From a virus: 54,250 nucleotides of DNA. The stretch spans positions 1 through 54,250 of the IMG/VR virus record IMGVR_UViG_3300017917_002358; one strand, written 5' to 3'. The notes below the pieces were generated by a model. That model did no database searches. It saw only the letters and a list, made by a program, of their open reading frames with translations, and had not been told where the DNA came from. Each line of letters opens with the position of its first letter. Within the stretch, counting starts at the first letter, position 1. Position numbers and translations under genes: made by a program. Of the stretch, positions 36,973-48,122 are shown one piece after another.

Positions 36973-37161
36973 ATGTCAACAACACATGAACAAATTCAAG
37001 CAGCATTTGAATCATACCTAGCAGAAAACGAAAAGTTTGAAGGCAAGGGCGTTAAGGCCGCGGCCGCACGTGCTCGCGGAGCATTGGGCGATCTTGGCAA
37101 GTTAGTCAAGGCTCGACGCGCAGAGATTCAAGAAAAGAAAAACGCAATGACAGGTAAGTAA
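36973..37161 (+). CDS. Small basic histone H1-like protein
   Basis: 62 aa. The first 25 residues are polar/acidic (HEQIQAAFESYLAENEKFEG), the rest Lys/Arg/Ala-rich (KAAAARARGALGDLGKLVKA, RRAEIQEKK), resembling the Lys/Ala-rich tails of bacterial histone H1-like proteins. It may bind DNA, but charge pattern is the only evidence. Similar small proteins occur in many T4-like phages of aquatic bacteria. A strong AAGGAG ribosome binding site precedes the ATG. Its stop overlaps the next start (TAATG). Confidence 0.7.
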   Translation: MSTTHEQIQAAFESYLAENEKFEGKGVKAAAARARGALGDLGKLVKARRAEIQEKKNAMTGK

Positions 37162-37700
37162 TGCCTAGCCCGCAGAAAGCCAAAGGATCGTCATGGGAGC
37201 GCGATGTAGCACGATACCTCACTGAACTTTATGGTGAGACATTTATTCGTGCTCCTGGTTCTGGTGCTTACGTAGGCGGGTCAAACAATCAACGAAAACA
37301 ATTTTTACACGAAGGGCAAATACGTTCATTCAAAGGAGACATTGTTCCGGGACAGAGTTTTCCAGGGTTGAACGCAGAGTGTAAGAGTTATGCAGATTTT
37401 CCATTTCATCAACTATTTCAAGGCACAGTTAACAAACTAGAAGAATGGATTACACAGTGTATGGACGCAGCCGACGACGGTGACTTCAACATACTGTTTA
37501 TGAAATTCAACCGCAAAGGTAAATACGTAGCAGTTCAGGCACAGCCCAATCATACTCAATTACTCTTTACTAGGCACTTCAATTATGGGTCACGCAATCA
37601 TGGGCACTGGTTCATCATGGATATGGACCTTTTCTTTGAATTAAATTCCACCGTAGTACAAGAACTTTGCAGTAAACAATTAGCCGCAACTGCAGCCTGA
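37161..37700 (+). CDS. PD-(D/E)XK nuclease, Holliday-junction-resolvase-like
   Basis: 179 aa. An N-terminal helix with the conserved Glu (KGSSWERDVARYLTELYG, residues 8-25) is followed by RAPGSGAYVGG, then GDIVP (Asp near residue 55) and NAECKSY (E-x-K near residues 70-72). This spacing is the PD-(D/E)XK core seen in Hjc/RecU-type resolvases and other phage nucleases. It could cut branched DNA before packaging or join host DNA breakdown; specificity cannot be read. It is the last plus-strand gene of the DNA-metabolism block. Its TGA stop lies in the three-base loop of a hairpin (37691-37707) that begins the structured region downstream. Confidence 0.78.
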   Translation: MPSPQKAKGSSWERDVARYLTELYGETFIRAPGSGAYVGGSNNQRKQFLHEGQIRSFKGDIVPGQSFPGLNAECKSYADFPFHQLFQGTVNKLEEWITQCMDAADDGDFNILFMKFNRKGKYVAVQAQPNHTQLLFTRHFNYGSRNHGHWFIMDMDLFFELNSTVVQELCSKQLAATAA

Positions 37701-38134
37701 GGCTGTATCCAGAGGTGATGGCGCTCGCGTAATGGCCGCGTCGGGAACGTAGGGACTAGACCCTACACTGGATGGCATCAGACGAACATTAGGTGTAAAA
37801 ACCAAATGATTGGGCTCTGCTACATTGCAACCCAAAAGCAAAATACAGTTCGCAGACCAGAACTGTTGCGCTACCGTCAGAAGAATCTGGAGTAGGGGGT
37901 ACCGGCTGACCGCCTCCGTTGTCTGTAATACAAGTACTAATTCTTTGGAAATTGTACTTGTAATACGTACAAATCTCCTATGGTCTGTGTGATGCCAAAC
38001 TCGGATGATGTATGGTAGTTACAGTTCTCCCGGAAACGGGTGAATTGTGACTGAAATCTGGATGATATCAGAAAGACAAAAGAAAAAGGTTTGTGAGCGC
38101 AAGCGAAACAAACAGATGTTCGAAGAACATCTTT
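37691..38134 (+). ncRNA. Candidate structured noncoding RNA between convergent operons
   Basis: About 430 bases hold no convincing gene but many paired segments. Local stems: GTAGGG/CCCTAC (37749-37766); TTGGG/CCCAA (37810-37835); ACAGTTC/GAACTGT (37845-37866); a 16-bp imperfect stem with core TACAAGTAC/GTACTTGTA (37925-37966); a 10+4 bp stem with a CCCG-GAAA-CGGG tip (38018-38051); GTTTGT/ACAAAC with a GCAA loop and tandem G-A pairs (38089-38113); and AGATGTTC/GAACATCT (38114-38132). Long-range pairing: TGGCATCAGAC (37773-37783) with GTCTG and ATGCCA (37983-37997, 4-base bulge), enclosing several stems; and GCGCTCGCG (37721-37729) with TGTGAGCGC (38092-38100), which competes with a local stem. 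G-U pairs and GNRA loops make sense on the plus strand. It does not look like tmRNA, RNase P RNA or a tRNA. Ends and promoter are unknown. Confidence 0.6.
38114..38134. terminator. Possible bidirectional terminator
   Basis: An 8-bp perfect stem AGATGTTC/GAACATCT with a three-base loop lies immediately after the stop of the small minus-strand gene and at the end of the structured region on the plus strand. It is followed by TTTAAAA on the plus strand and GTTTGTTTCG on the minus strand, so the T-tracts are weak both ways. Confidence 0.4.
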
Positions 38135-38348
38135 AAAAGAATGGTAATTTAGATTTCTTAGTTGTTTCTATATTGTCAGCAATTATTTTTGAAATGATAT
38201 TTCTTTCAACTGTGCTTAAAAATACGGCTTCCTCATAGGTAAGTCCACCGCGCATATACCAGCACATTTTAAGGGTTTCTTCTTTTAAGGCTCTTACTTC
38301 TCTATCCAACTTATCTAGCAGTTGGATAATTTCACCCTGATCTAACGT
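38133..38348 (-). CDS. Small conserved T4-like protein, possible gp51-type hub factor, non-canonical ACG start
   Basis: 71 aa, directly after gp26. The reading DKLDREVRALKEETLKMCWY, MRGGLTYEEAVFLSTVER, NIISKIIADNIETTKKS, LPFF resembles a small protein found beside baseplate-hub genes in T4-like phages of aquatic bacteria, sometimes labelled gp51 (hub assembly). No ATG, GTG or TTG precedes the conserved part; the first in-frame ATG falls in the middle of it (TLKMCWY). The likely start is ACG (38348-38346), which shares its A with the gp26 stop (TAACG), exactly where other gene pairs here have TAATG. An AAGG lies upstream. Coding status is well supported; start and function are less sure. Confidence 0.72.
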   Translation of the reverse strand, partial: TLDQGEIIQLLDKLDREVRALKEETLKMCWYMRGGLTYEEAVFLSTVERNIISKIIADNIETTKKSKLPFF

Positions 38349-39190
38349 TAAGAGCCTTGTGCGAAAAAATTTGAGTAATCAAATTCTATTGTAGTCTTGT
38401 ACTGTTGTCCGCAATTGGTACATTCGGTATCATAGGGTTTAACTCCTGCAGTACTGGCTACCATGGCCATGTGTTCCTGAATTTCTCTGATCAATGCAGA
38501 TTCAGCATTGGCATAGAATTCTTTGATAAAGTCAACGTCGGTAACAAAATTCCCCTCCGAGGTTAGCACAAATTCAGTGCTGTTGGCCAACGAGACAAAA
38601 TTCAAATCAATCATTTCTTCAGTTAGTTGTCTAATATTAATTTCGCGCTCTTCTGCGGAAATATCTGTTTTGGTTAGATTTTCTAATATTTTTTCTTCTT
38701 TGAATCTTATGTTGTTTACTCGATTGACTGCAAAGTAATTCTGCGGCTTTAACTTTATTTTCAGCCCCTTGTATTCGATTAGATCATCATAATTGGGCAT
38801 GCTGATATTATCCAATATGCCGGTTAACTCCAGAGTGTGGTCGTTGGTGGTACTACATGCTGGGCATTTGCTATTGATATCCATGTCATTTCCATAACTG
38901 GCAATTCTAATGGCAACGAGACAGGCATCTACATCAATACTGGGCATTTTCCACGGATCCAGGATATTAGGTATACAACTTTGTATAACAGAAACTACCC
39001 CGCTACCGTTCATCAGCGCATCGGGGGTGCGCAGTGTAATTTCATCGCGAGTAGTCATGGGAAATACGGGTAATTCACCGGTGGCCGGTAATTCTATAGA
39101 TCCTTCTTCCCAATACTTGCCTTGACTGGGTAGTTTGAGATATATTGCTGGTTGACGAAAATGCTTGCTTAAGGGGTTGGTCTGATTCAT
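38348..39190 (-). CDS. gp26: Baseplate hub protein gp26-like with zinc-ribbon cysteines
   Basis: 280 aa. The start (SKHFRQPAIYLKLPSQGKYW, then TGELPVFPMTTRDEITLRTPDALMNG) is the hallmark of the T4-like gp26 baseplate hub family. Two CxxC pairs, CPAC at 109-112 and CTNC at 257-260, could bind one zinc. T4 gp26 is about 208 aa. gp26 works in hub assembly with gp51, gp27, gp28 and gp29, fitting its place opposite the tape measure gene. A minus-strand late octamer lies 38-45 bases upstream of the ATG. Confidence 0.87.
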   Translation of the reverse strand: MNQTNPLSKHFRQPAIYLKLPSQGKYWEEGSIELPATGELPVFPMTTRDEITLRTPDALMNGSGVVSVIQSCIPNILDPWKMPSIDVDACLVAIRIASYGNDMDINSKCPACSTTNDHTLELTGILDNISMPNYDDLIEYKGLKIKLKPQNYFAVNRVNNIRFKEEKILENLTKTDISAEEREINIRQLTEEMIDLNFVSLANSTEFVLTSEGNFVTDVDFIKEFYANAESALIREIQEHMAMVASTAGVKPYDTECTNCGQQYKTTIEFDYSNFFAQGS

Positions 39191-47613: not shown

Positions 47614-47623
47614 TTATTGTTCG

Positions 47624-47676
47624 CTTTCATAATGAAAGTTTATGCGGTCCCCGCCGCGTAGAGCCTAGAACGCTAC
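47624..47676 (+). promoter_or_regulatory. Structured 5' leader with three hairpins
   Basis: Between the promoter and the ribosome binding site lie CTTTCA-TAA-TGAAAG (47624-47638), GCGG-TCC-CCGC (47644-47654) and GTAG/CTAC with an 11-base loop (47658-47676). AAGGAG follows 6 bases later. The leader may stabilise the message or control translation. Confidence 0.4.
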
Positions 47677-47696
47677 CATATAAGGAGACAAAACAA

Positions 47697-48122
47697 ATGG
47701 GACGCCCAATTAAACTAACAGAATCATCAACCGTTGACATAGGTTATGCCAGCGGGATAGGTGGTACAATTGGTGAGCCATACTCATCTACTGGTGTATA
47801 TACTATCGACTTCCAATATGCTGATGCATCCGGTAACGATGTGCTACATGGCTATGCATATAAACAAGTAGGTAAAAATAGATTTTATGTTGGTAACAGT
47901 GCAGCCATTGGTACTAGTCTAACTTTGGTAACTTTGGCAAATAATGATTTAGCGAATCTGGCTGCAAATACGGCCAGTATTCTTTGCTATAACACCAGCA
48001 ATGTGGCTTTTTATGCAAAACGTATAACTAGTCATCACGTGTGGGACTGGAATGATAACAGGTATGCCTATGACATTAGACAGGTAGCCAACCCAACCTA
48101 CGCTAACGTAGCAACATACTAA
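47697..48122 (+). CDS. Small virion structural protein (MGRP family start)
   Basis: 141 aa starting MGRPIKLTESSTVDIGYASG. The body is Gly/Asn/Tyr-rich with probable beta strands (YTIDFQYADASGNDVLHGYA, NRFYVGNSAAIGTSLTLVTL) and a C-terminal HHVWDWNDNRYAYDIRQV segment. It shares the opening MGRP with the next gene and MGR with the gene at 50119. Proteins of this type follow gp23 in T4-like phages of aquatic bacteria and are probably head decoration or other virion proteins. Function is inferred from context. Confidence 0.65.
   Translation: MGRPIKLTESSTVDIGYASGIGGTIGEPYSSTGVYTIDFQYADASGNDVLHGYAYKQVGKNRFYVGNSAAIGTSLTLVTLANNDLANLAANTASILCYNTSNVAFYAKRITSHHVWDWNDNRYAYDIRQVANPTYANVATY

Follow-up and report, generated by a model that had tools for sequence, protein, structure and literature searches.

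Phage contexts are known for GOLLD and ROOL. Together with OLE, these two classes resemble the RNA described here in their size class, their pseudoknotted multi-domain fold and their unassigned role (PMC12286853), whereas the RNA family gives no Rfam covariance match to any of the three and tRNA genes are absent from the 12 loci scanned. Another described motif, Polynucleobacter-1 (Rfam RF01718), originates from freshwater and Burkholderiales data and was labelled as probably cis-regulatory by Weinberg et al. 2010 (PMC2864571). Its full model aligns to the 5' end of the RNAs of two sister phages (loci L003 and L006), but it spans only about one third of the RNA and comes without the pseudoknot core, the repeats and the 3' hairpins that are described below.

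The locus and its relatives

The window, i.e. the whole stretch of DNA analysed, comprises 54,250 nucleotides (positions 1 to 54,250 of the IMG/VR virus record IMGVR_UViG_3300017917_002358) and belongs to a freshwater T4-like jumbo phage, with Portal_T4 and an SbcC-like gp46 present. The RNA lies on the plus strand, between a nuclease gene and a converging baseplate hub gene, and a small ORF sits between the RNA gap and the latter. The features are as follows.

37161..37700, plus strand: upstream gene, PDDEXK_15 / RusA-like Holliday junction resolvase (the nuclease)
37701..38134, plus strand: whole RNA candidate, from the nuclease stop to the terminal hairpin; homologues occur at the matching place elsewhere
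37701..37773, plus strand: variable 5' domain; Rfam RF01718 (Polynucleobacter-1) makes up the 5' third of the RNA in the L003/L006 subtype
37774..37780, plus strand: 5' arm (GGCAUCA) of the long-range helix, partner 37990-37996; from sequence and L001/L002 compensation
37811..37834, plus strand: conserved hairpin (UGGGCUCUG..GCAACCCA); pairs 37811-37834, 37812-37833 and 37813-37832 covary
37877..37880, plus strand: pseudoknot strand 1 (UCAG), partner loop 37906-37909; 14 pair types
37889..37978, plus strand: helix of GGAG (37889-37892) with CUCC (37975-37978); covarying pair 37889-37978
37895..37917, plus strand: core hairpin GGGGGUACCGG-CUGA-CCGCCUCC, whose loop 37906-37909 is pseudoknot strand 2
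37990..37996, plus strand: 3' arm (UGAUGCC) of the long-range helix, partner 37774-37780; from sequence and L001/L002 compensation
38003..38009, plus strand: repeat copy 1, GGATGAT 3' of ACTC; identity coevolution with 38060-38066
38018..38051, plus strand: hairpin separating the two repeats; double changes in 9/14 pairs
38060..38066, plus strand: repeat copy 2, GGATGAT 3' of ATCT; identity coevolution with 38003-38009
38089..38113, plus strand: hairpin with a UGAGC-GCAA-GCGAA apex; covariation in all pairs
38114..38132, plus strand: terminal hairpin C(GNA)G; double changes in 7/8 pairs
38348..39190, minus strand: converging gene, T4 baseplate hub protein (gp26-like)

Two further observations concern the window itself. 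A 62-aa histone Hc1-like protein (PF07432) is encoded at 36973-37161, immediately 5' of the nuclease, and an Rfam freshwater-2 RNA (RF02980) is matched at 47623-47699 on the plus strand (54.2 bits, E 1.5e-5), ending where the ORF 47697-48122 starts.

The search of the window RNA against Rfam gave nothing at gathering and, at a limit of E 10, three chance-level matches (E 5.7 to 7.6). In particular, RF01718 was matched neither at gathering nor at E 10, no tmRNA or tRNA was found by ARAGORN and Rfam, and no Rfam model of RNase P RNA, group I intron, HEARO or the known ribozyme families matched. The original prediction had recognised no known class and had likened the RNA to other large ornate phage RNAs. 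The first statement holds for the window and gives way in the sister subtype, whose 5' third is Polynucleobacter-1; the likeness is one of style, and the comparison with GOLLD and ROOL goes no further. In L003 and L006, all 141 positions of RF01718 fit the 5' 133-134 nt of the RNA with 101 and 118 bits, respectively (gathering score, 37), and the match to the window family starts directly 3' of it: an HMM built without these two loci detects their 3' two-thirds with E 4e-32 and 6e-28. Thus, RF01718 represents the 5' end of one RNA subtype; it was not matched in the other family loci scanned. A description of the family beyond this fragment was not found in the literature searched, mostly without subscription journals.

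Relatives of the window RNA are frequent at the same place. Among 80 loci fetched via the neighbouring nuclease alone and then searched by profile, 70 carry the RNA (E < 1e-6), which lies directly 3' of the nuclease stop in many loci and a few kb downstream in some. As for the other ten, four show partial matches near one end of the fetched stretch, and two of the remaining records carry the RNA elsewhere. The profile was seeded partly from the searched loci; a control HMM built without the divergent subtypes detects 155 loci at E < 1e-3, including the left-out L003, L006, L013 and L017. Scanning with the core pattern found the RNA in 119 of at least 120 viral stretches among the matches listed, and the 43 matches of this pattern among 84,980 prokaryote species genomes are chance matches that never represent the RNA, so that a host chromosomal copy was rejected. 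With model R1, no convincing match was obtained in PA5oct, Phosso, SCTP-2, Atu_ph07 and RaK2. PA5oct and Sinorhizobium phage Phosso have gaps of 1-1.5 kb beside the homologous nuclease (L202 7480-8990 and L203 7990-9000), with no convincing long genes, partly strong folding and, near L203 8275, a similar apex motif plus hairpin; these gaps are possibly diverged relatives of the RNA. The window RNA belongs to a large family of structured RNAs in T4-like jumbo phages, with a size of about 430 to 700 nt.

Covarying helices and a conserved pseudoknot

The plus strand of the 444-nt stretch has a fold energy of -158.1 kcal/mol (z -6.1), which is reached by 0/100 dinucleotide shuffles; the minus strand, against the same type of control, gives z -4.3. 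The longest plus-strand ORF of the region has 60 aa and a TTG start and is crossed by covarying stems, and no conserved gene candidate was found among the ORFs of the region. Comparison of 41 homologues reveals double changes in 24/30 base pairs within the 3' domain; the covariation score is 0.423 and drops to 0.06-0.09 when the partners are slid.

The key tertiary element of the RNA is a pseudoknot, which emerges from the columns with the strongest covariation along the full RNA. The loop NNNN of the hairpin GGGGGUACMGG-NNNN-CCGCCUCC pairs with the four upstream bases that lie 3' of CCG, and 14 strand combinations occur, such as UUGA/UCAA, UCAG/CUGA, UUGU/ACAA, UCGC/GCGA, UCAC/GUGA and AGAC/GUUU. 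When counted by anchored strings, as MAFFT had misaligned the pseudoknot strand, 93.8% of the cells are paired versus 69.6% when the strands are dealt anew, and 0/5000 shuffles are as high. The core hairpin that provides the loop is the block of highest conservation in the RNA and is surrounded, together with a variable hairpin, by the helix 37889-37892/37975-37978. Towards the 3' end, the apex motif UGAGC-GCAA-GCGAA is nearly exclusive to the RNA family (82 occurrences inside the RNA versus 2 outside, the window's own copy in L081 aside), and the terminal hairpin is also terminator-like on the minus strand, for the gp26 side. The order of pseudoknot core, repeat-hairpin-repeat, apex hairpin and terminal hairpin is found in the window, in the homologues and in the cultured isolates. 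A separate peculiarity of the last two stems (38089-38132 and homologues) is that they are fully compensated with G-U in 5 of about 600 pairing cells, and such near absence of G-U pairs is unusual for RNA stems.

Most of the original prediction, which was made from the window alone, is borne out by these data. It had proposed a large multi-helix noncoding RNA on the plus strand, now conserved with strong covariation in homologues; its local stems exist, the fold is better than that of the shuffled controls, and compensatory changes are present in both the 3' domain and the pseudoknot. Its first long-range helix is real, with seven perfect pairs (37774-37780/37990-37996) and compensatory changes in L001 and L002. 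The second (37721-37729 with 38092-38100) finds no support in the family: its 3' arm belongs to the hairpin 38089-38113, all pairs of which are double-changed, and homologues without the 5' arm still have this hairpin; the idea of two conformations loses its support along with it. GGATGAT was correctly placed on both sides of the stem 38018-38051, and these repeats proved to be the most informative feature.

Copies in cultured phages and the matched repeats

Xanthomonas phage XaC1 was reached via synteny, and its EndoVII-gp26 gap contains the RNA elements in the conserved order. The XaC1 copy has blastn matches in 44 phage records, and XaC1, Serratia phage BF, Cronobacter phage GAP32, Pectobacterium phage CBB and Salmonella phage Munch have about five places each, and every isolate place is on the plus strand of its record. 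An intact pseudoknot is present in 24/24 readable isolate copies, including UUGC/GCAA and UUAC/GUAA, and a -10 hexamer, mostly within TGNTATAAT, lies 5' of 21/22 copies tested versus 8.3 in shuffled sequence. Homology between the freshwater and the isolate groups rests on the shared locus, element order and motifs and is weak by sequence: the best direct match, which is collinear, has E 0.03, neither the window RNA nor L010 matched the isolate phages by blastn, and the isolate copies went undetected with a covariance model built on the 3' domain. The EndoVII-gp26 place, which is the window's locus, holds one copy in each of XaC1, BF and GAP32. In several isolate copies (sequences 5' of the RNA in L273, L275, L276 and L279), a perfect terminator-like hairpin with a U run begins no more than about 10 nt 3' of a -10 element and precedes the structured RNA.

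The two 7-mers of the RNA occupy the fixed frames ACUC-N7 and AUCU-N7, and among the covarying columns positions of the 7-mer track their counterparts as identities, not as complements. Identical copies are found in 106/110 distinct sequences, with 21 different 7-mers and a shuffling expectation of 13.6; only pairs agreeing in five or more leading letters entered this set, so that the raw count is inflated, while the covariation among columns was obtained without this selection. When the repeats are masked for tree building, at least 44 changes of the 7-mer are needed along the branches, and independent changes of position 1 are concordant between the repeats in 13/13 cases. Rare 7-mers (GGATGAG, AGCTGA, ATAGCAG and GTCGGAA) occur in L191, L128, L085, L102 and L008, some of which swap most letters in both copies together. 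A divergent clade (L039, L040, L048, L051, L057, L066, L072, L074 and L076) has no recognisable 7-mer pair and retains the position, the GGUAGUGC hairpin and the 3' hairpins. Further repeat copies in the window show no excess over chance.

In the isolates, the repeat consensus is YC(A)NCGUCAR, and the copy near 93-118 kb has CCGTCAG twice in BF, GAP32 and CBB and ACGTCAA twice in XaC1, while the other copies of those genomes have TCGTCAG or GCGTCAA twice. Repeats that are matched and yet differ between copies of one genome imply that the identity constraint acts in cis, and a trans-acting partner that reads the 7-mer strictly is disfavoured. Two other candidates were rejected as well. A symmetric tandem-GA internal loop predicted covariation of position 1 with position 7 of the other copy, which is absent, and a common third strand inside the RNA is not reflected in any enrichment of complements of the 7-mer (4.46 versus 4.55). 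The matching rule is not absolute in Munch, where position 1 is mismatched between the repeats in 4/4 copies read.

What the RNA may do

At about even confidence, we read the RNA as the product of a noncoding gene of its own in T4-like jumbo phages, a structural RNA that acts in trans. It has a compact multi-domain fold that is held by the long-range helix and the conserved pseudoknot and closes with two hairpins, and it would be transcribed as a unit; such a stable RNA would most likely work in trans during infection, either in complex with a protein or as an RNA-only oligomer. No promoter was found 5' of the window copy, which is probably transcribed via read-through from the gp46-nuclease operon. 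As the repeats must match within one molecule, both would show the same sequence to a single shared strand or symmetric contact used by their own RNA. It is also conceivable, if rather unlikely, that the family is a phage RNA class with near-regular dispersal and an in-cis identity rule for strand exchange, in which the 7-mers, free to vary yet always matched, might start replication or template a product.

An unlikely alternative is an origin or primer function in cis on the phage DNA: the RNA would provide an R-loop or primer at origins of replication dispersed over the genome, where direct repeats would allow the RNA or the nascent strand to re-pair with its own template. The in-cis identity of the repeats, the A-rich tract 3' of repeat 2 and the lack of a complement of the 7-mer inside the RNA are in line with this, as is the spacing of the five copies per isolate genome, which is evener than random (CV 0.10-0.32, P 0.0003-0.02). 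However, the enterobacterial phages have the sites in common, so that the spacing amounts to about one or two independent cases, and the shared strand of the copies is little evidence, as most BF genes lie on that strand. Moreover, long freshwater contigs have none to two copies each by model R1, and neither GC nor AT skew shows a significant step where the five BF copies lie (P 0.075 to 0.65). The R-loop origins of T4 offer a parallel in the T4-like replication genes, the dispersed sites and the promoter-like sequence in front; the phage RNA differs from them in its extensive conserved structure and in the absence of a significant skew at its sites.

The identity of the repeats might also be a by-product of templated mutation, i.e. 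of slippage across the hairpin, and not a function. Short direct repeats around a hairpin do favour misalignment, and the scarcity of G-U in the two 3' hairpins is what templated correction would leave. Nevertheless, matching is confined to the 7-mer, with the ACTC and ATCT flanks remaining different, and Munch retains its position-1 mismatch; as a full explanation this is quite improbable, although templated mutation may contribute both to the repeat identity and to this scarcity of G-U pairing.

A cis-regulatory leader of downstream genes, riboswitch-like or acting by translational control, is very unlikely. It would agree with the presence of hairpins close to start codons, with the label given to Polynucleobacter-1 by Weinberg et al. 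2010 (PMC2864571) and with the same-strand genes that follow the RNA at 4/5 BF places; the exception is the gp26 locus common to the window, GAP32 and BF, where a converging gene lies beyond the RNA. The BF and GAP32 copies at this place have no same-strand gene downstream and, therefore, a leader role fails there. Equally doubtful is a self-processing ribozyme or a strand-transfer template with identical repeats between which a nascent strand can hop: the pseudoknotted core and the identity-coevolving repeats that flank a hairpin would suit it, but known Rfam ribozyme families are unmatched and a reverse-transcribed template is unlikely because the reverse transcriptase domain RVT_1 (PF00078), which an RNA of the retron or DRT type would be expected to accompany, is absent from 20 phage records of 54-367 kb, many of them fragments.

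Collectively, an orphan Rfam motif of 141 nt becomes the 5' end of an RNA of 430-700 nt that extends across T4-like jumbo phages. Two sites that coevolve in cis toward identity rather than complementarity are unusual for a structured RNA, and the maintenance of one locus across very divergent phages, with five copies in some of them, suggests that the RNA has an important job, a function made testable by the cultured carriers (phages of Serratia, Cronobacter, Pectobacterium, Salmonella and Xanthomonas).
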